In this document: in pieces, positions 37,128 through 47,832 of the stretch
How the letters are laid out: each line of letters begins with the position of its first letter
How positions within the stretch are numbered: position 1 is the stretch's first letter
Assembly: GCF_019173455.1 (NCBI RefSeq)
Contig: NZ_JADPQH010000001.1
Span: 806,001 to 870,000, forward strand
DNA from: Nesterenkonia sp. Act20
GTDB taxonomy: Bacteria; Actinomycetota; Actinomycetes; Actinomycetales; Micrococcaceae
Direction: 5' to 3'
DNA length: 64,000 nt
The notes under the pieces: generated by a model
The model's input: the letters and a program-made list of their open reading frames with translations, nothing else
Told to the model about the DNA's origin: nothing
The model's database searches: none
Position numbers and translations under genes: made by a program

Positions 37128-38090
37128 TCAGAGCTGCCAGCCTGCCTCTCGCAGGTCGGCGATGATCAGTTGTTTCTCAAGTTCGTTGGCCTGCACGAGC
37201 GGCAGGCGGACGCCGGGCTGCATCCCGGTGCCGAGCCAGTTGAGCACCTGCTTGCAGGAGACCGCCCCCTGCACGCGGGTCATCATGGCGCGGATGACAG
37301 GGCCGAGCTCGCCGTGGGCGATGCGGGCCTCGCGCAGGTCATAGTTGAGCACCGCGTCGATCATCCGGCGGAAGGTCGGGGAGGCCACATGGGCGGTCAC
37401 CGAGACGACGCCGGCCGCACCCATGGCCATCCAGGCGAGCACGTTCTGGTCATCACCGGAGTAGACCTCGAGGTCGGTCTTGGTCAGCACCTCGGTGGTG
37501 GCCGTGATGTCATTCTTCGCGTCTTTGAGCGACATGATGTGCGGGTGCTCGGCGAGCTTCAGGATCGTCTCGGTGGAGATCGGGATGCCGGTGCGCCCGG
37601 GGATGTCATAGATCATCAGCGGCAGGTCCGCGGCGTTGGCCACGGCGGTGAAGTGCGCGAGCACCCCGTCCTGGCTGGGCTTGTTGTAGTACGGGGTGAC
37701 GACCAGCTGCCCGTCGGCTCCGGCCCGCTCGGCACGCTTGGCCATGAGCAGGTCGTGATCGGTGTGGTTCGTCGAGGTGCCGGCGATGACCTTGGCACGA
37801 TCCCCGACGGCGGACTTGGCCGCCCGCACCAGGGATTCCTTCTCGTGGTCCTCCAGCGTGGAGACCTCACCGGTGGTGCCGGAGACCACCAGGGAGTCGT
37901 TGCCCTCCTCGACGAGCTTGACCGCGAGCGCCTCGAACGCGTCGAAATCGATCTTGTCATCCGGGGTGAATGGGGTGACCATCGCCGTGATCAGATGCCC
38001 GAAATGCGGGTCGGTCTGATCCGGGTGCTGCACCTGTCCCTGGGTGAGATGAGGATCGAATTCGTGTGTGGGCTCGTTGTCGCTTGCCAT
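37128..38090 (-). CDS. dapA: 4-hydroxy-tetrahydrodipicolinate synthase
   Basis: A 320-residue aldolase that condenses pyruvate and aspartate semialdehyde, the first step of the lysine/DAP branch. SGTTGE near residue 70 binds substrate, VTPYYNKPSQDG and YDIPGRTG contain the catalytic Tyr, and the Schiff-base Lys is in MSLKDAKND near 190. It has a ~30-residue N-terminal extension. ATG 38090 lies 6 nt after a TAGGCT -10 box. dapB (47071) and dapF (23508) are elsewhere in the window. Confidence 0.95.
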   Translation of the reverse strand: MASDNEPTHEFDPHLTQGQVQHPDQTDPHFGHLITAMVTPFTPDDKIDFDAFEALAVKLVEEGNDSLVVSGTTGEVSTLEDHEKESLVRAAKSAVGDRAKVIAGTSTNHTDHDLLMAKRAERAGADGQLVVTPYYNKPSQDGVLAHFTAVANAADLPLMIYDIPGRTGIPISTETILKLAEHPHIMSLKDAKNDITATTEVLTKTDLEVYSGDDQNVLAWMAMGAAGVVSVTAHVASPTFRRMIDAVLNYDLREARIAHGELGPVIRAMMTRVQGAVSCKQVLNWLGTGMQPGVRLPLVQANELEKQLIIADLREAGWQL

Positions 38091-38122: not shown

Positions 38123-38197
38123 GCGTTTTACCGGGCCGTACGTGGATTACCTGGCAGACGGCGGGGCTGGTAATTCACCCAAGTCCCGGTAAAACGC
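38123..38197. repeat. 75-bp nested palindromic element, copy A
   Basis: Outer arms GCGTTTTACCGGG (38123-38135) and CCCGGTAAAACGC (38185-38197) pair perfectly over 13 bp. Inner arms GTGGATTACC and GGTAATTCAC pair 9 of 10. Same length and layout as the elements at 42545 and 46968. It lies between the anti-sigma gene end and the dapA promoter. Confidence 0.85.
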
Positions 38198-38213
38198 TCG
38201 GGGTGGGGTGGGA

Positions 38214-39035
38214 TCAGCTGTCCGCGGGCTCCATGGGGCCCGCGGCGAGGGTGGTGCCGCTGTGGCCGGGATCCCCGTCGAAGTGCTCATGGGAGACGTC
38301 GACCACCGGGTACTCGCTCAGGTCCAGACCTTCCGGAACCTGGAAGGTGGTGGACTCGGTGCCGGTGACCGCGCCCAGAGACTGCAGGCGGGAGCCGTCC
38401 TCGTTGCGCAGCCAGACCTCGAAGTACCCGGCCTCGGGGTCTGGTGCCTCGGAGACCTCCACGGTGATCTCGAGCAGGCCGTCCTCGGTCTCCACCATCT
38501 CGGCCTGTCCGGAGATGTCTTCGGCGGCGACCGGTTCCAGCGCGGCGTCGCCGAGGACGGTGGGCGCGGCCACGGGCGGCTCTGCGGGGGCCTCCTCCTC
38601 GGAGCCCTGGCCCAGCACACCGGCGACGGCGGCGCCACCGATCAGCACTCCGGCCGCGGCAGCCGCCAGCGGCACCCAGCGACGACTTGGGGTGGGCCGC
38701 GGGCGCAGCTGATGGACCGAGGCCCCAGTCGGCCCGGGGGCCGCCGGGGTCTCAGCGATCTCCGCAGCGATGCGGTCCCAGAGCCCAGCGGGGGGTTCGA
38801 GCAGATTCACCGGATCACGCAGCGCGTTCAGCGCACGCTCCGTGGCCGCCAGGGCCTCCCGGCAGGGGGCGCACAGCGCGAGATGCCGCTGCGCCTCGGT
38901 CAATCGATCTTCGGTCGGAGGCGCGGCGGCGCCCTCCTCCTCGGCGAGACGGGGGTCTGCCAGCATGGCCAGCTCGTGGTCGCTCAGGTGCGCAGCGGAG
39001 TCGGAGCGCTCGTTCGGCGGGAACTGCTCAGTCAC
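38214..39035 (-). CDS. Anti-sigma factor (RskA-like)
   Basis: A 273-residue membrane protein that would hold the adjacent sigma factor. The cytosolic part (~1-115) has an H-x3-C-x2-C zinc motif: the His of RHLALCAPC followed by the two Cys. A membrane segment at ~128-148 (WVPLAAAAAGVLIGGAAVAG) is followed by an extracellular RskA C-terminal domain: EITVEVSEAPDPEAGYFEVWLRNED, SSTFQVPEGLDLSEYPVVDVS, DGDPGHSGTTL. The GTG at 39035 overlaps the sigma stop by 8 nt, so the pair is coupled. Confidence 0.88.
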   Translation of the reverse strand: MTEQFPPNERSDSAAHLSDHELAMLADPRLAEEEGAAAPPTEDRLTEAQRHLALCAPCREALAATERALNALRDPVNLLEPPAGLWDRIAAEIAETPAAPGPTGASVHQLRPRPTPSRRWVPLAAAAAGVLIGGAAVAGVLGQGSEEEAPAEPPVAAPTVLGDAALEPVAAEDISGQAEMVETEDGLLEITVEVSEAPDPEAGYFEVWLRNEDGSRLQSLGAVTGTESTTFQVPEGLDLSEYPVVDVSHEHFDGDPGHSGTTLAAGPMEPADS

Positions 39036-39606
39036 TATGCACCTCCAGACTCTTTCGCATGCGGGCCAGGCCCCTGTGGACATGGGATTTCACGGTACCC
39101 AGCGGCATTCCCAGACGCTCGGCGATGATCTTGAGTGGGAGGTCCTCCGCGTAGGCCAGGCGAAGTATCTCATCCTGCGGCGGGCCCAGTGCATCCAGGC
39201 TCTGCTGGACCACCACGCGGTCCACCACCGCGTCTGTGGGCTGTGGAGCATCCTCACGGACCTGTTCCTCGACCCCGGCCCTGGCGGCCTGCAGGTCTCG
39301 CTCCCGCCGCGCGAACGTGTCAGCGATGACGCGTCGGGTGATCCCGGTCAGCCAGGCACCCGTGGGCTGGGTGATGTCGTAGGTGTCGTGGGAGCGCCAG
39401 GCACGCGTGAACACCGCTTGGGTGGCGTCCTCGGCGTCTTGGCGGTGCCGCAGGGCTGCCATGCACAGCGAGAACACGAAGGCGCCGTGCTGCCGATAGA
39501 GGTCCTGCATGGCCGCCGGCTCGCCGGCCGCGAAACGCATCGCCAGGGGCTGCGGGTCCAGAGCGCCTCCTCGGTCGGGGAACGGTTTCACACTCGGCGC
39601 GGACAC
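39028..39606 (-). CDS. ECF sigma factor (SigK-like)
   Basis: A 192-residue extracytoplasmic-function sigma factor. Region 2 is LYRQHGAFVFSLCMAAL...DAEDATQAVFTRAWR (~35-75); region 4 is LGPPQDEILRLAYAEDLPLKIIAERL with GTVKSHVHRGLARMRKSL (~135-188). GTG 39606 with GAGG upstream is chosen; a reading from 39660 would run into the sortase gene. Its anti-sigma partner follows. In Mycobacterium the related SigK/RskA pair controls secreted antigens; here the co-transcribed surface genes are likely targets. Confidence 0.9.
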   Translation of the reverse strand: MSAPSVKPFPDRGGALDPQPLAMRFAAGEPAAMQDLYRQHGAFVFSLCMAALRHRQDAEDATQAVFTRAWRSHDTYDITQPTGAWLTGITRRVIADTFARRERDLQAARAGVEEQVREDAPQPTDAVVDRVVVQQSLDALGPPQDEILRLAYAEDLPLKIIAERLGMPLGTVKSHVHRGLARMRKSLEVHSD

Positions 39607-39619
39607 GGTCCTCGACCGT

Positions 39620-40324
39620 TCAGTCCGCAGGTTCAGCAACCACGATGATGTTGTCAGCATAGCTGTTTCGCTCAGGAATCCACTGACCTCCGCAGGTGAT
39701 CAGCACCAGACGATGCTGACCCGCTCGGTCGAAGTATGGAGCAAAGTCCAGCCCGTCCTTGCCGAGCTGCTCGACCTCGGTGACCGCGTAGCGGTGTTCC
39801 TCCCCGGACTCGTCGAGGACGGTGATCTCCTCCCCGGGGCGAGCATCCTTGAGCGCATACAGCGGTCCGATCGGAGTCTCCTCAGAACCAGCATGGGCTG
39901 AGATGACAGTGGTGCCGACGTCGTCGGCCGGTGCCTTGCCGTATTGGTACCAGGCAGCCTGGGCGGCGTCGTCGGGGATATCCATCTGCCCGTCGCTGGC
40001 CACGCCGCGCGGCTGCACCGGCAGCTCGGCGTCAATCCCCGGGTAACGAACCTCCACCGGTTCCGGGGCCTCCTGAGCCCTGCCCAGCTCGGCCGAGCGG
40101 ACCTGCACCTCGGAGCCGTCCAACCCTGCGGAGGAGTCCGCCTGACCGGGGGCCTCCGGCGCCCTGAACGCCGAAGGCCCCGCAGAATCATCAGGTGCGG
40201 ACATCTCCGCCGTCGGCTCATTCCCGGAGCCTCCCGCGCAGCCGGAGACCGCCAGCGCGGCGATCACCGCCAGGCTCAGGACGCGCGGATGACCCCGGGA
40301 TGGGCCGCGACGGGTGGTGCTCAT
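39620..40324 (-). CDS. Class F-like sortase with lipoprotein signal
   Basis: A 234-residue transpeptidase that joins surface proteins to the cell wall. N-terminal AALAVSGCAGG is a lipobox, so it appears lipid-anchored rather than held by a membrane helix. The sortase barrel covers ~95-234: catalytic His in TVISAHAGS, Cys in LVLITCGGQW, and Arg in PERNSYADN. The actinobacterial sequence resembles class F/E, not SrtA. ATG 40324 lies 1 nt after the stop of the DUF4397 gene. The neighbouring DUF4397 protein is the probable substrate. Confidence 0.85.
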   Translation of the reverse strand: MSTTRRGPSRGHPRVLSLAVIAALAVSGCAGGSGNEPTAEMSAPDDSAGPSAFRAPEAPGQADSSAGLDGSEVQVRSAELGRAQEAPEPVEVRYPGIDAELPVQPRGVASDGQMDIPDDAAQAAWYQYGKAPADDVGTTVISAHAGSEETPIGPLYALKDARPGEEITVLDESGEEHRYAVTEVEQLGKDGLDFAPYFDRAGQHRLVLITCGGQWIPERNSYADNIIVVAEPAD

Positions 40325-40325
40325 C

Positions 40326-41150
40326 TCAGGCGCGGCTCTTCGCGCGAGCGCCGAAGGCCACAGCGCCGACGCCTGCCAGGGCCAGCACGCCGAGACCAGC
40401 GATCCAGCCCGTGGAGGACTGTGCGGCGGGAACCTCGTAGTTGCCGGTCGGGACACCGTCCGGCGAGGAGTGCATGCCCTCGACGGTCTGGGTGGCCAGG
40501 GCGAGGTTTCCGTTCTCCGCCGAGCCCCACGCGTAGACGATGGTGGAGGCACCCTCAGCGACTGCCACATCGGCGGGACCGATGACGGGATCAGACTCGC
40601 CGGTCAGTGAGACCGCGGCCTCGAGGGTGCCGGCGGGCAGCTCCAGGCTGGCCTCATCGGGGTTCGCGAGCGCCTCGACGGCGACCTCCCCGTTGGCCCA
40701 GATGTCGACCTCGGGGGCAGCGGCCAGGTGACGAACGGTCAGTCGACCCTCACCGGCTGCCAGCTCCGAGGTGTCGTTCTCGAACGGGGTCACGGTGGGC
40801 TGGCCGTCAGCGTCCAGATGGGCCGCGGCGGTGTAGTTCACACCCTCCTCGAGGGTCAGATCCACCGGTCCGAGAACCGGCTCGGAGTCATCCTCAGCGT
40901 CGGCGGCGGTGATGGCGACCTCGTAGTCCCCGCCGGGCAGCTCCAGCGGTCCGGCCAGGTCGCCGGGGGCGAAATCATCGAGGGTCAGTTCACCGTTGAC
41001 GTAGACGTCCACGGGAAGGTCCGGCACGGCGTGCAGCACGGACAGATGCGCGGAGGCACCCTCGTGTGAATCGGCGTAGGCCGGGGCTGCGGATCCGGCG
41101 ATGGCCAGACCCACAACTGCGGTGGTTGCTAGGGGCAGTGACTTACGCAT
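40326..41150 (-). CDS. DUF4397 surface protein with sorting-signal-like C-terminus
   Basis: A 274-residue exported protein. A signal peptide (TTAVVGLAIAGSAAPAYA) is followed by two DUF4397 beta-sandwich repeats: ~35-115 (LHAVPDLPVDVYVNGEL) and ~135-210 (RHLAAAPEVDIWANGEVAVE). The C-terminus ends in a hydrophobic stretch (WIAGLGVLALAGVGAVAF) and a basic RAKSRA tail, as in sorted proteins, but a canonical LPxTG is lacking; the closest is QSSTG just before the hydrophobic part. AGGAGAGG lies before the ATG. First gene of the operon with sortase, sigma and anti-sigma. Confidence 0.85.
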   Translation of the reverse strand: MRKSLPLATTAVVGLAIAGSAAPAYADSHEGASAHLSVLHAVPDLPVDVYVNGELTLDDFAPGDLAGPLELPGGDYEVAITAADAEDDSEPVLGPVDLTLEEGVNYTAAAHLDADGQPTVTPFENDTSELAAGEGRLTVRHLAAAPEVDIWANGEVAVEALANPDEASLELPAGTLEAAVSLTGESDPVIGPADVAVAEGASTIVYAWGSAENGNLALATQTVEGMHSSPDGVPTGNYEVPAAQSSTGWIAGLGVLALAGVGAVAFGARAKSRA

Positions 41151-41231
41151 GACGTTGCCTCTCCTGGTTCCTCAAGCAGTGATTGTGATCACGTGTTGTG
41201 CTCACACCAGGACTACCGCCGGGGACGGTGA

Positions 41232-41267
41232 AAGGTTGCAGGGACCGGGAAGTTTTTTTCAGGTTCC
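41232..41267 (-). promoter_or_regulatory. Possible ECF-type promoter elements before the DUF4397 gene
   Basis: On the minus strand two AACC-type -35 motifs, GGAACC (41267-41262) and GCAACC (41239-41234), lie upstream of the DUF4397-sortase-sigma operon. AACC is the usual ECF -35 core, so one of them may be used by the operon's own sigma factor. The -10 cannot be assigned with confidence. Confidence 0.3.
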
Positions 41268-41303
41268 ATGTCAGGTGATCTCCGGCCGACGCACAGGAGG
41301 CAG

Positions 41304-41309
41304 TAGCGT
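41304..41309 (+). promoter_or_regulatory. -10 box TAGCGT before the membrane acyltransferase-like gene
   Basis: TAGCGT followed by 7 nt and GTG 41317, consistent with a leaderless start. An AGGAGG at 41296-41301 is 15 nt from the GTG, too far for a normal ribosome site. Confidence 0.4.
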
Positions 41310-41316
41310 ACGGTCT

Positions 41317-42531
41317 GTGATCACAGCCGGCACCGCCTCCGCACGTACCCGTCGCATCTCGGGAGTCGACGCCGCCCGCGGCCTCGCACTGCTGGGGATG
41401 ATGACCGTCCACGTGCTGCCCACCATCTCCGAGCCCGGCCACGAGGCCACCTGGGCGGGGCTGCTCTTCACGGGCCGCCCCTCAGCCCTCTTCGCGCTGC
41501 TGGCAGGTGTCGGCCTGGCGCTGCTCAGCGGCGGCGCCGGACGGGCGCACTCCAAGACGCAGCTGGCCGGGGACCGCAAGGCCATCGCCGTGCGGGCGGT
41601 GATCGTGGTGGTCATCGGGCTGCTCGTCGCACACCTGGACTCTGGCGTGGCGATCATCCTGGTCCACTACGGGCTGCTGTTCCTGCTCGCGATCCCGTTC
41701 CTGCGCCTGGGCGCGGTCCCGCTGTTCGCCCTGGCGGGTCTCTGGGTGGCCGCCGCCCCGGTGGCGTATTGGTGGCTGCACAATGATCTGCGTGACAGCC
41801 TCACCCAGTTCCCCGACACCTGGAGACTGTGGCACTCCCCCTCGCTGACCGACCTCGCGGACCCCGGTCTGATGGGCATGGATCTCGCGCTGACCGGGTA
41901 TTACCCGCTCTTGATCTGGCCCGCGTACCTCTTCGCCGGCATGGCCATCGGCCGGTTGAAGCTGCAGCGCACGAGCACCGCGCTCAGACTCGCGGGCACG
42001 GGCCTGGCCCTGGCGCTGATCAGCTATGGCGTCCACCTGTGGATGCTCTTCCAGTCCGAATTCATCACCGAACTGGCGGGCCGCTATGGCTGGTCCACCG
42101 CGGAGCTGCGCGCCGAGCTGCTGGCCGGCACGTATCAGGTGCCCCTGGTGACCGAGAACGCCTGGTTCCTGCTCGCCACCCCGCATCAGGGCTCCACCAT
42201 GGACCTGATCCACACCCTGGGCACCTCGATGCTGGTGCTCGGGATGTGCCTGCTCATCGCGGAGAAGCTGCGCTGGCTGCTGGCTCCGCTGATCGGCGCC
42301 GGAGCCATGCCGCTGACCCTGTATGTGGGCCACCTGGTGGTGCTGCACTACTGGAACGGGGCTCAGGTGCCGGAGTTCATGACCTTCCTGGCGCAGTATT
42401 CCGCCACACAGATGCTCATGATCCTGATCCTGGGGGCGCTGGCGGCGGGTCTGCTGCGGTTCCTGCTGCGCCGACGCGGCCCCTTGGAGGCGCTCACCCA
42501 CGCAGCCGGCAACGCCGTCGCCCGCCGCTGA
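41317..42531 (+). CDS. Polytopic membrane protein, HGSNAT/DUF1624 acyltransferase-like
   Basis: A 404-residue protein with about ten membrane segments. The N-terminal RRISGVDAARGLALLGMMTVHV carries the Arg/Asp/Gly pattern and loop His of heparan-alpha-glucosaminide N-acetyltransferase-like and DUF418 proteins. Later LYVGHLVVLHYW resembles the C-terminal motif of the same group. Such proteins move acyl groups across the membrane, often onto cell-wall sugars. Substrate unknown. GTG 41317 is chosen by the -10 box before it. It diverges from the DUF4397 operon. Confidence 0.75.
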   Translation: MITAGTASARTRRISGVDAARGLALLGMMTVHVLPTISEPGHEATWAGLLFTGRPSALFALLAGVGLALLSGGAGRAHSKTQLAGDRKAIAVRAVIVVVIGLLVAHLDSGVAIILVHYGLLFLLAIPFLRLGAVPLFALAGLWVAAAPVAYWWLHNDLRDSLTQFPDTWRLWHSPSLTDLADPGLMGMDLALTGYYPLLIWPAYLFAGMAIGRLKLQRTSTALRLAGTGLALALISYGVHLWMLFQSEFITELAGRYGWSTAELRAELLAGTYQVPLVTENAWFLLATPHQGSTMDLIHTLGTSMLVLGMCLLIAEKLRWLLAPLIGAGAMPLTLYVGHLVVLHYWNGAQVPEFMTFLAQYSATQMLMILILGALAAGLLRFLLRRRGPLEALTHAAGNAVARR

Positions 42532-42544
42532 GGTTCCTCCCGCC

Positions 42545-42619
42545 GCGTTTTACCCCGCCCTCCGTGGAATACCTCCGCGACGGTGGGCCCGGTAAACCAC
42601 GGACGCGGGGGTAAAACGC
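42545..42619. repeat. 75-bp nested palindromic element, copy B
   Basis: Outer arms GCGTTTTACCCC (42545-42556) and GGGGTAAAACGC (42608-42619), inner arms CCGTGGAATACC (42562-42573) and GGTAAACCACGG (42591-42602) with two mismatches. It lies between the convergent membrane-protein gene and galK. Confidence 0.85.
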
Positions 42620-42640
42620 TGGGGTCTGGGAGGGGCGGGG

Positions 42641-43822
42641 TCAGCTGAGTCGGCGGGCGCCCGCGGAGGGCTGAGCGAGGAAACCGGTGGGCTCGGTGAA
42701 GCCGTGCCGACGGGCGTTCTCCTGCACGGCGCCGAGCAGCCCCTCGAAGGAGTCGGCGTCGATCAGCGCGATCACGCAGCCGCCGAAGCCCCCGCCCACC
42801 TGTCGGGCTCCCAGCGCGGGCTGGGCTCCATGATCCTGGTGCGGGGCCATCAGCGTCTCGACCAGCGTGTCGGTCTCCGGGACCGTGATCTCAAAGTCAT
42901 CGCGCTGCGAAGCATGGGAGGCACTGAGGATCTCACCGAGCTCGGCGTAGGCGCCGATGCTCAGCGCTTCGCGAGCCGCAAGCACGCGGGTGTTCTCGGT
43001 GAGCACGTGGCGGACCCGGCGCAGGATGACCGGGTCCTCAAGCCGAGCGGACAGCTCCTCCGGCGCGACGCCGTCGTCGTTGAGCTCGCGCAGACTCTCC
43101 AGACCCAGCTGCCGCGCTCCTGTCTCGCACTGGGAACGGCGAGCGGCGTACTCGCCGTCGACCAGCCGGTGTTCCGCCAGTGAATCGATGACCAGCAGCG
43201 CCAGCCCGTCCTGCGCCAGCATGAACGGGACGTGCTCGATCGCCATGCTCCGGGTGTCAAGCAGCAGCGCATGCTCGGCCTGCGCGGCGATCGACGCCAT
43301 CTGATCCATGATTCCGCAGGGCATCCCGACAAAGTCGTTCTCCGCATGCTGTGCCAGCTGAGCAAGCTCGACGGCGGGAAGTCCGACGCCGGCCAGTTCG
43401 GTGGCAGCCAGGCCGACGGAGCATTCCAGGGCGGCCGAGGAGGACAGTCCCGCGCCGATCGGGACTTCCGAGTCGATGAGCAGGTCCATCCCCGGCAGCA
43501 GGTGCCCAGCCTGCTCGAGCGACCACAGCATCCCCGCGGCGTAGGCGGCCCAGCCCTCGACGACGCCGGGGCGCAGCCCATCCAGGCTGAACTCCGCGGT
43601 CTCACCGTTGAGCAGGGACCGGACATGCACGATCCGGTCGCCGCGGGTGGCGGCGGCGACCCGGCTGGTCTGTGGCAGTGCGAAGGGCAGCACGAAGCCA
43701 CCGTTGTAGTCGGTGTGCTCCCCGATCAGGTTCACCCGCCCGGGGGCCGCCCAGATTCCGGCACTGTCCCGGCCGAAGACCTCCTGGAAGGCGTCGGAGA
43801 GCGCACGCGGTGCGGAGCTCAT
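42641..43822 (-). CDS. galK: Galactokinase
   Basis: A 393-residue GHMP kinase that phosphorylates galactose at C1. Substrate signature GRVNLIGEHTDYNGGFVLP near residue 30, ATP motif PIGAGLSSSAALE near 125, the catalytic Asp in MPCGIMDQMAS, and QVGGGFGGCVIAL near 345. ATG 43822 overlaps the galE stop by 4 nt. Last gene of deoR-galT-galE-galK. Confidence 0.96.
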   Translation of the reverse strand: MSSAPRALSDAFQEVFGRDSAGIWAAPGRVNLIGEHTDYNGGFVLPFALPQTSRVAAATRGDRIVHVRSLLNGETAEFSLDGLRPGVVEGWAAYAAGMLWSLEQAGHLLPGMDLLIDSEVPIGAGLSSSAALECSVGLAATELAGVGLPAVELAQLAQHAENDFVGMPCGIMDQMASIAAQAEHALLLDTRSMAIEHVPFMLAQDGLALLVIDSLAEHRLVDGEYAARRSQCETGARQLGLESLRELNDDGVAPEELSARLEDPVILRRVRHVLTENTRVLAAREALSIGAYAELGEILSASHASQRDDFEITVPETDTLVETLMAPHQDHGAQPALGARQVGGGFGGCVIALIDADSFEGLLGAVQENARRHGFTEPTGFLAQPSAGARRLS

Positions 43823-44832
43823 GCGGCGCCTCCGGTGGAGCTGATTGCGGAGGGGACAGAAGAGGTTTCGGAAGCGCCTCCCCGGGCGTCGCCGTCCAGC
43901 GCGTTCCACGCGTCGGCCACCATCTGGCGGACATCCCTGGTGGGCTGCCAGCCGAGGTCCTCCAGCGCTCGCTGTCCGGAGGCCACCAGCACGGCGGGGT
44001 CACCGGCCCGGCGAGGCTCTTCGACTGCGGGGACCTCGCGGCCCGTGACCTCACGGACGGCGTCGATGATCTCTCGCACCGAGGTGCCGGTGCCGGTGCC
44101 CAGGTTGTAGATCTCGTGGGTGCCCGGCGTGGCCGCCTTGAGTGCGCGCAGGTGCGCCTCGGCGAGGTCGCGCACGTGGATATAGTCGCGCACCGCCGTG
44201 CCGTCCTCGGTCGGGTAGTCGGTCCCGAAGATGCTTGCGCTCTCCTTCTCCCCCGCGGCGACCTTCAGCAGGTTCGGGATCAGGTGGGTCTCCGGGTCGT
44301 GGCGCTCGCGCAGCTCCCCGGAGGCACCGGCGACGTTGAAGTAGCGCAGGCTGATCGCCGCCAGGCCGTGAGCGTGCGCCTCGGCGGTGAGCATGTGATC
44401 GATCGCGAGCTTCGACGCGCCGTAGGGGTTGGTCGGCATGGTCTGATCGGTCTCGGAGATGCTGGCGCCGGCCGGCTCCCCGTAGACGGCTGCCGTGGAG
44501 GAGAACACCAGGCGGGGCACCCCGGCCTCGCGCATCGCGTCGATCAGGGCGAGGGTGGCCACGATATTGCCGTGCCAGTACCGCTCCGGGTGGGAGACCG
44601 ATTCCCCGACCAGGGAGCGTGCGGCGAGGTGGACCACTCCGTCGAAGCTGGAGTCCAGGATGCGCCCCACCTGGTGCAGGTCGGCCTCATGCCAGATCGC
44701 TCCGCCGAGGATGGAATCGGCGTGGCCGGTGCTCAGGTTGTCCAGCACCTCTACGGTGTGGCCTTCGGCGAGCAGCTGCTGCACCACCACTGATCCGATG
44801 TATCCGGCGCCCCCGGTGACCAGCAGCTTCAT
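43819..44832 (-). CDS. galE: UDP-glucose 4-epimerase
   Basis: A 337-residue short-chain dehydrogenase-type epimerase that interconverts UDP-galactose and UDP-glucose. NAD motif TGGAGYIGS at residue ~6, substrate Ser in VFSSTAAVYG, and the catalytic YGASK pair near residue 146. The C-terminal ~20 residues are Ala/Ser-rich. Overlaps of 4 nt with galT and galK tie it to the Leloir operon. Confidence 0.95.
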   Translation of the reverse strand: MKLLVTGGAGYIGSVVVQQLLAEGHTVEVLDNLSTGHADSILGGAIWHEADLHQVGRILDSSFDGVVHLAARSLVGESVSHPERYWHGNIVATLALIDAMREAGVPRLVFSSTAAVYGEPAGASISETDQTMPTNPYGASKLAIDHMLTAEAHAHGLAAISLRYFNVAGASGELRERHDPETHLIPNLLKVAAGEKESASIFGTDYPTEDGTAVRDYIHVRDLAEAHLRALKAATPGTHEIYNLGTGTGTSVREIIDAVREVTGREVPAVEEPRRAGDPAVLVASGQRALEDLGWQPTRDVRQMVADAWNALDGDARGGASETSSVPSAISSTGGAA

Positions 44833-46010
44833 CGTGTCTCCCCTGTCTGTGGTTCAGCGTCTGTCGAAGATTCAGCACCCAGGTCCACCAGCCGACGGGC
44901 CATGTCCTCAGGCGCGATGTCATTGATGAACACCCCCATGCCGGATTCCGAGCCGGCCAGGAACTTCAGCTTATTCTCCGCGCGCCGGATCGAGAACAGC
45001 TGCAGGTGCAGGCGCATCAGTCCGCGCTCCGCGGAGGCCGGGGCCTGCTGCCAGCCGGAGATATAGGGCAGCGGGCCGTCGAAGAGCCGGTCCCCGCGCT
45101 GAAGCAGGTCCAAGTAGAGCGCGGCGAAGTCTTCCCGCTCCGCATCGGTGAGTTCCGGGAGACGCTCCACCGCGCGATGCGGGTAGATGTGCAGCTCCAC
45201 CGGCCAGCGCGCCCAGGCGGGGATGAACGCGGTCCAATGCTCGGTGCGCGCCACGATCCGCCGGCCGTCGGAGACCTCCGCGGCCAGGACGTCGGCGAAG
45301 AGGTCCGCTCCCCGGCGCTCCCGGTAGTCCGCGGCGGATTCCAGCAGGGCCCGGGTGCGCGGGGTGACGAACGGATAGCCGTAGATCTGCCCATGCGGAT
45401 GGTGCAGGGTCACACCGATCTCCTCGCCGCGATTCTCGAAGCAGTAGACCTGCTCGACTCCGGGCTCTGCCAACATCGCTTCCGTGCGGTCCGCCCAGGC
45501 ATCCACCACGGTGCGCATCCGCGCGGCACTGACCTGGGCCAGCTGGGAGGTGTGGTCATCGGTGAAGCAGACCACCTCGCATCGGCCCGAGCCGGGCTGG
45601 CGGATTCCTGCGGACTCGGCGGCCGCCGTCGTCGTGCTCAGGAAGTCGGCGGGAACCGGGATGTCGCCGCGGAAGGAGGGGAAGCGGTTCTCGAAGACGA
45701 CGACGTCGTACTCGGCCTGCGGGACCTCGCTGGCGCGATCTTCCGTGGTCGGGCAGAGCGGGCATTGATCACTGGAGGGCAGGTGGGTGCGGTGCTGGCG
45801 AGCCGCGGCGATGGCCACCCATTCACGCAGCAGCGGGTCATAGCGCATCTCATTGCCACCCTCGGGGCGGGTGATCTCGCGTCGATCCTGGATGGTCCGG
45901 GTGCGCGGAACATCGTCGAAGAAGATGATCTCGCGGCCATCGGCGAGCTGCGCATGGGACTTATGCGCGCGCCGATGCGGGGTTTCGGGGACCTCGGGAG
46001 CGGTGGTCAT
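44829..46010 (-). CDS. galT: Galactose-1-phosphate uridylyltransferase
   Basis: A 393-residue HIT-superfamily enzyme that exchanges UMP between UDP-glucose and galactose-1-phosphate. Zinc-binding CPLCP near residue 85, and the active-site HHPHGQIYGYP near 207 with the nucleophilic His. The N-terminal ~50 residues extend beyond the E. coli form. It overlaps both deoR and galE by 4 nt. Confidence 0.95.
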   Translation of the reverse strand: MTTAPEVPETPHRRAHKSHAQLADGREIIFFDDVPRTRTIQDRREITRPEGGNEMRYDPLLREWVAIAAARQHRTHLPSSDQCPLCPTTEDRASEVPQAEYDVVVFENRFPSFRGDIPVPADFLSTTTAAAESAGIRQPGSGRCEVVCFTDDHTSQLAQVSAARMRTVVDAWADRTEAMLAEPGVEQVYCFENRGEEIGVTLHHPHGQIYGYPFVTPRTRALLESAADYRERRGADLFADVLAAEVSDGRRIVARTEHWTAFIPAWARWPVELHIYPHRAVERLPELTDAEREDFAALYLDLLQRGDRLFDGPLPYISGWQQAPASAERGLMRLHLQLFSIRRAENKLKFLAGSESGMGVFINDIAPEDMARRLVDLGAESSTDAEPQTGETR

Positions 46011-46891
46011 CAGGATCTCCTGGTCTCAGTGGTCTCGGGTGTCTCGGCGAGGGTCAGCGTCAGCTGCTCGCGCAGCTCTGCGGCGGCGGCGTTCGGCAGC
46101 CCGGTGTCGCTGATCAGCGCGTCGATCTGTGGGAGCCGGGCGAAGGTGCCCAGGGCCGTGATGTTCCATTTGCTGTGATCAGCCAGCACGGCGGCGCGCG
46201 CCCCGGACTCCAGCAGGGTGCGGTTGGTCTCAGCCTCCTCGAGGTTTGGTGTGGTGAATCCCGCGGCGGCGGAGAAGCCGTGCGTGCCGAGAAAGACGAG
46301 GTCCAGGTGCAGGGAGCGCAGCGCCTGATTTGCGAGGGGGCCGACGAGCGCGTCGGAGGGCGTGCGCACCCCTCCGGTGAGGATCACCTTCGGGTCTGCC
46401 GCGCTGCTGGCCCGCTCGCCGACCTGCTCCCGAGCCCGCTCCCGGGCGTGGGTATCGGCCCGGGCGTCGGCGGCGCGGTGAAAGATCGCCGCGATCCGCG
46501 GCGAGTTGGTCACCACGGTGAGCTCGGGGACGCTGAGCAGGTGATGAGCCAGGGCCCAGGTGGTGGTCCCGGCCGAGAGCCCGACGGACATTCCCGGGGC
46601 GAGAAGCTCAGCCGCGGCCGCGGCGATGGCCTGCTTCTCGGGGAGCATCTGGTCAGATTTGGCCTCGAACCCGGGCTCCTCCGTGCGCCGCGCTGCCGCG
46701 GCGGCGCCGGCTGCGGGAGACACGGCCCCGCCGTGGACCTTGGCGATGAGCCCTGCCTCAGCGAGGTTCTCGAGATCGCGGCGGATGGTCATGTCGGAGA
46801 CCTCGAAGCGAGTGGCCAGCTCCGAGACGCTGACCGCCCCGGCGCTGTCGAGCAGCGAGACGATCCCGGCGCGACGCTGAGCTGCGAGCAT
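46010..46891 (-). CDS. DeoR-family regulator of the gal operon
   Basis: A 293-residue sugar-responsive repressor. The N-terminal HTH is RRAGIVSLLDSAGAVSVSELATRFEVSDMTIRRDLENL (residues ~6-45), followed by KVHGGA. The effector domain has SAGTTTWALAHHL near 110, VTNSPRIAAIF, LTGGVRTPSDALVGP and FLGTHGFSAAAGFTTPNLEEAETN. An insert of ~25 Arg/Ala-rich residues (RADTHARERAREQVGERA) is unusual. ATG 46891 follows GGAGG. First gene of the gal operon, so it probably controls its own transcript in response to a galactose-pathway phosphate. Confidence 0.9.
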   Translation of the reverse strand: MLAAQRRAGIVSLLDSAGAVSVSELATRFEVSDMTIRRDLENLAEAGLIAKVHGGAVSPAAGAAAAARRTEEPGFEAKSDQMLPEKQAIAAAAAELLAPGMSVGLSAGTTTWALAHHLLSVPELTVVTNSPRIAAIFHRAADARADTHARERAREQVGERASSAADPKVILTGGVRTPSDALVGPLANQALRSLHLDLVFLGTHGFSAAAGFTTPNLEEAETNRTLLESGARAAVLADHSKWNITALGTFARLPQIDALISDTGLPNAAAAELREQLTLTLAETPETTETRRS

Positions 46892-46923
46892 GGGACCTCC
46901 TCGGGACGCGCGGACCGGACGAT

Positions 46924-46955
46924 CACATTCAAACACAAGTGAACACATTCCAACA
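46924..46955 (-). promoter_or_regulatory. Direct-repeat operator for the DeoR regulator
   Basis: Read on the minus strand, TGTTGGAATGTG and TGTTTGAATGTG occur 20 bp apart (46955-46944 and 46935-46924), 33 bp before the deoR ATG. DeoR-type regulators bind tandem repeats of this kind. The 179-bp gap to dapB also holds palindromic copy C. Confidence 0.6.
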
Positions 46956-46967
46956 GGCCATCCCCCG

Positions 46968-47042
46968 GCGTTTTACCCCTCCTTCCGTGGTTTACCGCCC
47001 CCGCCGTGAGCCCGGTAAACCACGCCCCACGGGGTAAAACGC
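46968..47042. repeat. 75-bp nested palindromic element, copy C
   Basis: Outer arms GCGTTTTACCCC (46968-46979) and GGGGTAAAACGC (47031-47042) and inner arms CGTGGTTTACC (46986-46996) and GGTAAACCACG (47014-47024) all pair perfectly. It lies between the divergent deoR and dapB starts, so it cannot be a terminator for either. Confidence 0.88.
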
Positions 47043-47070: not shown

Positions 47071-47832
47071 ATGAGCAATGCAGAGATTCGAGTCGCCGTG
47101 CTCGGCGCCGGTGGGCGCATGGGCCGCGAGGCCGTCGAGGCTGTGAAGAATGCACCGGACATGGAGCTGGTCGCGGCCCACGGTCGCAGCGACACCCTGG
47201 AAGAGATCCTCACGGCAGGTGCCACGCACATCGTGGACCTCACCGTGCCGGATGCCACCGAGGCCAATGTGCGCTTCGCCGTGGAACACGGGATCCACGC
47301 CGTGGTCGGGACCACCGGATGGGACGCCGATCGGCTGGAACGCCTCGAGCAGCTGCTGTCCGAACACCCCGAATCCGGCGTGCTGATCGCCCCGAACTTT
47401 GCGCTGGGCTCCGTGCTGGCCACGGCGTTCGCCGCCAAGGCCGCGCAGTACTTCGAGTCCGCGGAGGTCATCGAGCTCCACCACCCGCAGAAGGTCGACG
47501 CCCCTTCGGGCACCGCGGTGCGCACCGCGGAGCTGATGGGCGCGGCGCGGGAGGCCGCCGACGTCGCCCCCTCCCCTGATGCGACCGAGACCGCGCTCGA
47601 CGGCGCTCGCGGCGCCGAGGTGGCCGGCATCCACGTGCATTCGGTCCGGCTGCGCGGCCTGGTCGCCCACCAAGAGGTGCTGCTGGGCTCCGCCGGGGAG
47701 CAGCTGAGCATCCGCCACGACTCCTTCGACCGTGCCTCGTTCATGCCCGGCGTACTGCTCGGACTGCGCACCGTGGGATCGCGACCCGGCTTGACCCACG
47801 GACTCGACGGCTACCTGGACCTGGGGCTGTAG
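47071..47832 (+). CDS. dapB: 4-hydroxy-tetrahydrodipicolinate reductase
   Basis: A 253-residue NAD(P)H reductase, second step of the DAP/lysine branch. Nucleotide motif VLGAGGRMGREAVE at residue ~9, VVGTTGWD near 75, NFALGSVL near 105, and the catalytic ELHHPQKVDAPSGTA near 132. The start is an ATG 6 nt after TAGGCT, so translation is probably leaderless. A membrane-protein gene follows at 5 nt. Confidence 0.96.
   Translation: MSNAEIRVAVLGAGGRMGREAVEAVKNAPDMELVAAHGRSDTLEEILTAGATHIVDLTVPDATEANVRFAVEHGIHAVVGTTGWDADRLERLEQLLSEHPESGVLIAPNFALGSVLATAFAAKAAQYFESAEVIELHHPQKVDAPSGTAVRTAELMGAAREAADVAPSPDATETALDGARGAEVAGIHVHSVRLRGLVAHQEVLLGSAGEQLSIRHDSFDRASFMPGVLLGLRTVGSRPGLTHGLDGYLDLGL

Follow-up and report, generated by a model that had tools for sequence, protein, structure and literature searches.

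The stretch of DNA analysed here, referred to as the window, comprises 64,000 nucleotides of the Nesterenkonia sp. Act20 genome (contig NZ_JADPQH010000001.1, positions 806,001 to 870,000). It contains three palindromic elements, A, B and C, belonging to a family that is dispersed in this genome (G000; other G numbers denote compared genomes) and in related species, and two copies of which bracket a gene outside the window (Table 1). A first-pass annotation had described the three as 75-bp elements with nested arms, starting at 38123, 42545 and 46968 and lying in differing gene contexts (co-directional, convergent and divergent). Their sizes, positions and arms were confirmed, and gene calls around them agree with the contexts. 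The outer arms, GCGTTTTACC/GGTAAAACGC, are perfect and 10 bp long each in A, B and C, and the inner arms are of the CGTGGnnTACC/GGTAnn type. With at most one mismatch, GCGTTTTACC occurs six times in the window, each time within one of the three elements; the mean count in the shuffled window is 0.61, and none of 100 shuffles reaches six.

Copy number and spread

A search of G000 and related genomes with an inverted-repeat covariance model, as the first-pass annotation had proposed, yielded further copies in G000 and in sister species. The model was built from 40 copies of eight genomes, its 13 base pairs being used purely as a search device, and all its counts are lower bounds, as 150 first-look candidates were scored per genome. 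It recovers at least 18 places in G000 (36 rows, as a palindrome matches both strands) and 12-20 copies each in G009, G011, G012, G019 and G026; matches at E<=0.001 are present in 15 of the 30 genomes of the genus. In thirteen of the G000 copies, 12 measuring 75 bp and one 74 bp, the outer arms are perfect, and the reversed-pattern control gives none. When named genomes were scanned for the four-box pattern described below, 23 of 24 stretches were from Nesterenkonia (N. cremea, N. haasae, N. massiliensis and an uncultured isolate). The single match outside the genus, in [Muricauda] okinawensis (L076 4051-4118), may be due to chance or something else, about 0.2 chance matches being expected.

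The flavour of the elements differs in G011, with accctcGTTTTACCAA and a centre that is often CGTATACG. In some variant elements one T-run is reversed, which gives outer arms of the types GTTTTACC and GGTATTTT; L090 (G000:C1:1515555), L108, L131, L138 and L156 represent one orthologous locus in five genomes, and L137 lies elsewhere in G019.

Anatomy of the element and test for pairing

The anatomy was read from an alignment of 81 of 91 copies from five genomes, those of exactly 71 bp. Its near-constant parts are, in order, GTTTTACC, G.G, TACC, a central C.G, GGTA, C.CG and GGTAAAAC. They make up four boxes ordered -> -> <- <-, and the starts of successive TACC/GGTA units are separated by 19, 21 and 19 bp. 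No constant GTAG tag was found in the 81 copies. The first-pass annotation had noted that the arms of element A differ from those of B and C in a manner that keeps them paired, and had taken this for covariation. The differing letters are real, but kept pairing fails over the 81 copies: variable positions show no general covariation, 74.5% of cells being paired as against 74.4% in shuffled alignments, and pairs changed on both sides number 19 versus 19.1 in shuffles. Pairing is slightly above expectation at pair 22/50 (0.58 versus 0.48). Since the variable positions lack a general pairing constraint, the symmetry appears to reflect mainly the binding of a protein to double-stranded DNA, and the element would mainly be a site of that type rather than an RNA or a hairpin. 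A structured-RNA element, one of the possibilities first raised, is thus not supported, pairing being equal to that in shuffles; an RNA family was rejected on this lack of general covariation together with the Rfam search of the window, which gave 0 matches above the gathering threshold.

Conservation of loci and boxes

Two loci were treated as orthologous if they had at least one homologous neighbour gene in common (identity >35% over >60% of the shorter length). Flanking DNA was taken in six genomes, for 18, 18, 20, 18, 17 and 12 copies. Of the 15 genomes matching the model, nine (G004, G005, G007, G010, G017, G018, G020, G027 and G028) were left out of the orthology and box counts. Thirteen of the 18 G000 loci carry the element in all of G009, G012, G019 and G026, and 17 of 18 carry it in at least three of these four. 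Elements B and C have orthologues in all four genomes and element A in G009, G012 and G026; no orthologue of A was found in G019.

The boxes are far better conserved than the rest of the element. In comparisons of G000 with G009, G012, G019 and G026, in that order (15, 15, 12 and 14 locus pairs, assigned by hand from neighbour-gene orthology and leaving out L086 and L090, which are not 71 bp long), the outer boxes diverge by 3.3, 1.3, 3.6 and 1.3% and the inner TACC by 2.5, 0.8, 10.4 and 0.9%. The CG.G positions are intermediate (5.6-11%). Non-box positions diverge by 22, 42, 46 and 26%, and four-fold codon sites of the neighbouring genes by 23, 37, 40 and 21%. Counted locus by locus (14, 15, 12 and 14 loci, pairs of unequal length being dropped), the 24 box positions show 0-4 changes, mostly 0 or 1, and the other 47 positions 4-27. 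Boxes that stay nearly unchanged while the spacers drift like four-fold sites point to selection at each place. Box-dependent ascertainment cannot explain this conservation, because 17, 17, 14 and 16 of the 18 loci were recovered in the four genomes. Judging from these divergences, the boxes are under strong purifying selection at each locus.

Position relative to genes

Gene contexts were taken from a codon-usage gene-calling script rather than from annotation. None of the 18 G000 copies lies wholly inside a called gene, although two extend into a gene end, over 21 and 68 bp. Fourteen of the 18 overlap a stop codon or sit within 25 bp of one. Eight lie between converging, six between co-directional and four between diverging genes; as a baseline, 244 kb of G000 contain 114 gaps with a length of 60 bp or more, and 21 of these separate converging genes (P about 0.01 for 8/18). 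Element B takes up most of the 109-bp gap that separates its two converging neighbours. The first-pass doubt about a simple terminator role is borne out by the four copies between diverging genes and by the lack of kept pairing. A nucleoid-protein or architectural role is possible. A role as origin or terminus marker was considered and rejected: although concentrated in part of the chromosome, the copies also occur near dnaA in G000, G009 and G012 (dnaA at G000:C1:1.82 Mb and G012:C1:2.59 Mb), so that no simple origin/terminus rule applies.

As to the surroundings of element A, genes for an RskA_C anti-sigma, a sigma-70-like and a sortase-domain protein (window 38214-40570) separate it from the HGSNAT_cat-family gene in G000; in G009 and G026 its orthologue directly adjoins a 1215-bp gene at the HGSNAT position.

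Candidate partner gene and its protein

One gene stands out by its association with the elements. It is bracketed by two copies in G000, G009, G012, G019 and G026, and by copies of another box flavour in G005 and G011. Only two of the 12 G011 copies have a gene neighbourhood in common with G000 copies, and these are the two that bracket the gene. The G011 protein is 43% identical to that of G000. The downstream element (L083, G000:C1:970954-971021) overlaps the 3' end of the gene, so that the last ~21 codons consist of element sequence. A copy elsewhere in G012 matches the tail of the partner protein in a six-frame search.

The N-terminus is an AbiEi-like winged helix. Pfam AbiEi_4 matches the G000 protein with 25.5 bits against a cut-off of 25, and 18 of 29 sequences (the G000 protein and 28 relatives) at E<=0.1; at the same threshold PADLOC AbiEi models match all 29, the best at 4e-10. 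The C-terminus contains GES, D, E-F-D-G, K-Y and E-K motifs that are invariant in the 29 sequences, including D333, E344, D346 and K370. These invariant residues, together with weak database matches, make a PD-(D/E)XK-type nuclease probable. The first-pass annotation had suggested looking for a REP-associated transposase (RAYT; REP, repetitive extragenic palindrome) or another partner gene. A likely partner, bracketed by elements, was indeed found, but it is not recognisable as a RAYT: no HUH/RAYT family matches the 29 sequences at Pfam E<=0.1, with no search made for a RAYT elsewhere in the genome. Five Pfam families are listed at this threshold, namely AbiEi_4, DUF559, MTES_1575 and two stray ones. 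By eye, the neighbours of the gene in G000 look like rimP and proS and not like AbiEii, no search having been aimed at AbiEii.

Table 1. Elements A, B and C in the window, and the candidate partner gene
Feature	Position	Strand	Remarks
Element A	38123..38197	.	75 bp; neighbours: DHDPS-family gene start (37128-38090, -), RskA_C anti-sigma gene end (38214-39083, -)
Element A, left outer box GCGTTTTACC	38123..38132	+	
Element A, left inner TACC	38148..38151	+	also in 81-copy alignment
Element A, right inner GGTA	38169..38172	+	also in 81-copy alignment
Element A, right outer box	38188..38197	-	
Element B	42545..42619	.	75 bp; converging neighbours: HGSNAT_cat-family gene (41101-42531, +), galactokinase gene (42641-43909, -)
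Element B, left inner TACC	42570..42573	+	
Element B, right inner GGTA	42591..42594	+	
Element C	46968..47042	.	75 bp; diverging neighbours: DeoR-family regulator gene (46010-46948, -), dapB (47071-47832, +)
Element C, left inner TACC	46993..46996	+	
Element C, right inner GGTA	47014..47017	+	
Candidate partner gene	G000:C1:970957-972252 (outside window)		432 aa; bracketed by elements at 970951 and 972328

Relatives of the gene and other palindrome families

Relatives of the partner gene are present in 28 of the 30 genus genomes and in 165 of 198 genomes of the order, which in this set is possibly wider than the NCBI order Micrococcales. One scan of viral contigs found no relative of the gene, and viral carriage was therefore rejected. 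Palindromes are common beside these relatives. At 16 of 30 genus loci, several of which are mutually orthologous, at least one flank palindrome scores >15, the 99th percentile of 731 control windows; among them, the L192 palindrome spans an N-run and one at L197 is terminator-like. A score of at least 14 is reached by 28 of 58 flanks at 29 loci (that of the G000 gene plus 28 from other genera), as compared to none of 58 windows further out, both sets of control windows being mostly coding, and 11 of the 29 reach this score on both sides. The fairer control, ordinary genes of G000, gives 14 of 268 flanks at >=14, 10 of 134 genes with >15 on any side, and none of 134 with >=14 on both sides. Moreover, for 23 of 57 genes, two orthologous pairs included, the upstream and downstream flanks have a repeat in common that exceeds the 99th percentile obtained with 855 mismatched pairs. 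The G000 group is not among these because its downstream element overlaps the gene end.

The boxes vary from gene to gene (TGTCCCCGTC, CTTCCCACC, GTTGAGTTCTCCGG, ATCGTAG and others), and the four-box order is plain in several loci (e.g. L187, L206, L244, L245 and L249), not in all. Box type agrees within close clades (support 1.0) of the tree built from 29 Nesterenkonia proteins, the types being GCGTTTTACC, TCGTTTTACCAAG, TTTTACCCTGCC, GTTGAGTTCTCCGG and ATCGTAG. The TTTTACC types form one larger group that includes L194, with a deep node lacking good support. Box labels were read by eye, and L187, which has in-frame stops, was excluded from alignment and tree.

Three further, unrelated palindrome families are likewise multi-copy and constant in length. 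The 42-bp family has 8, 4 and 3 copies in G019, G023 and G024, one adjoining a gene of the family in each, besides two copies in G000 and one in G004. G179 contains the 67-bp family in 25 copies, including the two that border the gene, and three congeneric genomes contain none; no copy lies inside a called gene, 22 of 25 overlap a stop codon or lie within 40 bp of one, and none was called between diverging genes. The 62-bp family has four copies in G029, two around the gene. In G017, two low-scoring elements (G017:C4:255277-255346 and 256510-256579) flank a further paralogue of the gene, which suggests that elements of two flavours coexist there. Another family member with in-frame stops lies at G000:C1:236597-237742; this and L187 are probably decayed copies.

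Evidence on movement

Two G012 copies, separated by 3.1 kb and with unrelated flanks, share 94% identity along 82 bp, and one of them has evidently moved recently as a bare 82-bp unit. Similarly, two G011 copies are 0.91 alike in flanks that are 0.24 and 0.33 alike, and the dispersed 67-bp copies of G179 have unrelated flanks. One copy of G009 recurs in G012 and, judging from the neighbouring genes, in G026. The corresponding DNA of G000, otherwise 90-92% identical, lacks it, most simply through a loss. In another family, a palindrome-gene-palindrome unit of G009 and G026 ends about 7-25 bp from the homology break with G000 and G012, and about 55 and 23 bp from it in G019. An unrelated gene, ATP-grasp-like by eye, occupies the slot in G000, G012 and G019. 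The offset of the homology breaks from the unit ends and the unrelated gene in the slot suggest that the unit arrived by replacement or was itself replaced, without a clean insertion. The slot (L290 12130-13301, L289 909-2544, L299 4890-6090, L284 8083-9609) holds the ATP-grasp-like gene in three species and the palindrome-gene-palindrome unit in two.

Discussion

The proposal that follows builds on computed features, namely copy number, architecture, box conservation, lack of a general pairing constraint, gene association, clade-wise box types and one recent bare copy. We consider it rather probable that the element is a four-box site read by a partner protein, that the two diverge together, that copying is rare, and that sites useful to the host are retained. 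Each element would be a double-stranded binding site, in which the 19/21/19 bp spacing would put the four boxes roughly on one side of the helix. The reader would be the protein from the bracketed gene, its AbiEi-like winged-helix N-terminus reading the boxes and its PD-(D/E)XK/DUF559-like C-terminus being a probable nuclease. Protein and element would constitute a pair that diverges together, with the upstream copy probably serving as operator of the partner gene. The nuclease-like C-terminus suggests that cutting at elements feeds rare copying; nuclease action would probably permit the bare element to be copied, mostly to places just behind stop codons. Selection on the boxes of settled copies suggests that the host, too, benefits from bound sites, in the simplest case through protein roadblocks that separate adjacent and often converging genes, or else through anchoring of the chromosome. 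On a broader scale, a second, unrelated palindrome-mobilising lineage may exist, in which an AbiEi-type winged helix joined to a PD-(D/E)XK nuclease copies its own double-stranded four-box palindromes within the chromosomes of actinobacteria, settled copies are selected at gene ends, and co-diverging pairs are widespread in the order. This we put forward tentatively, as a serious possibility.

Several observations weigh against the proposal. Binding, cleavage and mobilisation by the partner protein, as well as the host role, are what we infer on top of the computed features. Inspection by eye of 21 G179 copies, the G012 copy and the G000/G009 site shows no target-site duplication of the kind expected for a miniature inverted-repeat element (MITE) of a DNA transposon, and the long retention of loci is no less compatible with a host function than with mobility. 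The variable pair 9/63, adjoining the outer box, is paired at 0.44 versus 0.33 expected. The gene is 69% identical in G020, yet that genome gives four model rows only. In the comparison of G011 with G000, identity is 84% for one neighbour gene and 43.5% for another, so that 43% for the partner protein is not special; its divergence is itself uninformative, and the telling point is the bracketing common to both genomes. The nuclease assignment has to accommodate Pfam DUF559 matches that are weak (7 of 29, best E 9.7e-6) and that recur in 1 of 10 and 0 of 9 sequences in two further scans at E<=0.01, a Protein Data Bank (PDB) profile search with the family that gave no match, and a single-sequence fold of a 121-residue C-terminal piece whose strand/helix order is compatible with a PD-(D/E)XK core but which, with a predicted local distance difference test (pLDDT) score of 51, is too weak to use. 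Furthermore, the flank palindromes stand out most against control windows that are mostly coding, and some of them resemble ordinary terminators. No common upstream/downstream repeat was detected in 34 of the 57 genes by the criterion used, and six Nesterenkonia loci (L195, L196, L198, L201, L204 and L208, labelled 'none') have no convincing palindrome; some relatives may truly lack elements. Finally, the bracketed gene of G029 (L187, G029:C1:2796936-2798078) has two in-frame stops.

Among other explanations, the elements could be fixed binding sites that serve the host as roadblock, insulator or chromosome anchor and are read by the partner protein without present mobility, the gene-side palindromes being autoregulatory operators. 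The retention of 17 of 18 loci, the purifying selection on boxes and the bias toward 3' ends and converging genes all suit this reading, and autoregulation by AbiEi has a precedent (PMC3985639). It does not account for the recent bare copy in G012, the similar copies with unrelated flanks in G011 and G179, the nuclease-like end with its invariant residues, or the presence of two copies, not one, around the gene, and we regard it as unlikely, though worth keeping in mind. More improbable is selection for the hairpin itself, under which the elements would act as bidirectional terminators of transcription or as RNA elements. The closeness to stop codons, the eight converging contexts and the absence of called diverging contexts in G179 would fit this, as would the stable folds of A, B and C (z -3.7 to -7.5). 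However, four G000 copies lie between diverging genes, covariation and Rfam matches are lacking as described above, and the element has a T-run in its 5' arm and an A-run in its 3' arm, the reverse of an intrinsic terminator.

A sequestered nuclease, in a defence- or addiction-like arrangement where the elements hold the nuclease inactive until the host chromosome is destroyed or lost, would agree with the AbiEi relatedness, the invariant nuclease-like residues and boxes that are kept although every copy adjoins a different gene; it is purely conjectural and marginally less probable again. Least probable, and indeed very improbable, is a classic REP or REPIN family mobilised by a RAYT, an HUH tyrosine transposase, on single-stranded hairpins. 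Palindromes dispersed near gene ends and a gene bordered by copies do reproduce the layout of a REPtron (PMC8266576, PMC3733652). On the other side, no HUH family is among the Pfam matches of the bordered gene and its 28 relatives at E<=0.1, with no search aimed at a RAYT elsewhere in the genome; hairpin pairing is not kept, and REPs measure 20-40 bp according to PMC3733652 versus 42-75 bp in these families. The REP/REPIN-like mobile palindrome suggested in the first-pass annotation therefore survives as a dispersed family with a likely partner gene and copies in sister species, and is not supported as regards kept pairing or, for the bracketed gene, a recognisable RAYT.

If the favoured explanation of a four-box site and its partner protein is true, it would add a second case to RAYT/REP, the reference system in which a bacterial gene has dispersed palindromes of its own; as its protein is different and its site double-stranded, the arrangement would have arisen twice. 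It would also offer a role for a large unexplained protein family, that of the 165 of 198 genomes of the order. The paired protein and box families could be used for learning winged-helix specificity. In addition, it becomes testable why such repeats persist, since selection is seen in the boxes alone and at loci that are independent of one another.

Comparison with known systems

In the literature searched, which did not include preprints or the majority of subscription papers, we found no description of a link between palindromes and AbiEi/DUF559 proteins; a prior description is possible. The RAYT proteins of REPtrons are HUH enzymes acting on folded single strands, and DUF559 is linked with Vsr. 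The C-terminal motif and the weak Pfam matches of the present protein recall DUF559/Vsr-like PD-(D/E)XK proteins. In a REPtron, a coding sequence is bordered by palindromes that are dispersed genome-wide, mostly just behind stop codons, and gene and palindrome co-evolve (PMC8266576, PMC3733652). The bordered gene, the dispersed copies and the 3'-end preference are the same here. In contrast, the protein combines an AbiEi-like winged helix with a PD-(D/E)XK/DUF559-like part and is not recognisably HUH, and the elements are 42-75 bp long, with four boxes in the closely read families, no general hairpin constraint where this was tested and no constant GTAG tag. As neither an HUH family in the bordered gene and its 28 relatives nor a kept hairpin was found, the system is laid out like a REPtron but is not filed as one.

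TIRtrons (TIRYT genes with long terminal inverted repeats) resemble it in that longer palindromes flank the gene, some of them repeated in the genome (PMC3733652); the difference is that TIRYT is a tyrosine (HUH) transposase. In the AbiE type IV toxin-antitoxin system, the AbiEi of S. agalactiae binds long inverted repeats upstream of its own gene (PMC3985639). The AbiEi-like N-terminal winged helix and a long inverted-repeat site upstream of the gene are common to both systems, whereas the C-terminus here is nuclease-like and the sites lie on both sides of the gene and are dispersed as well. Protein and site differ from every palindrome system found, although a stricter view may see in them a variant of the REPtron idea.

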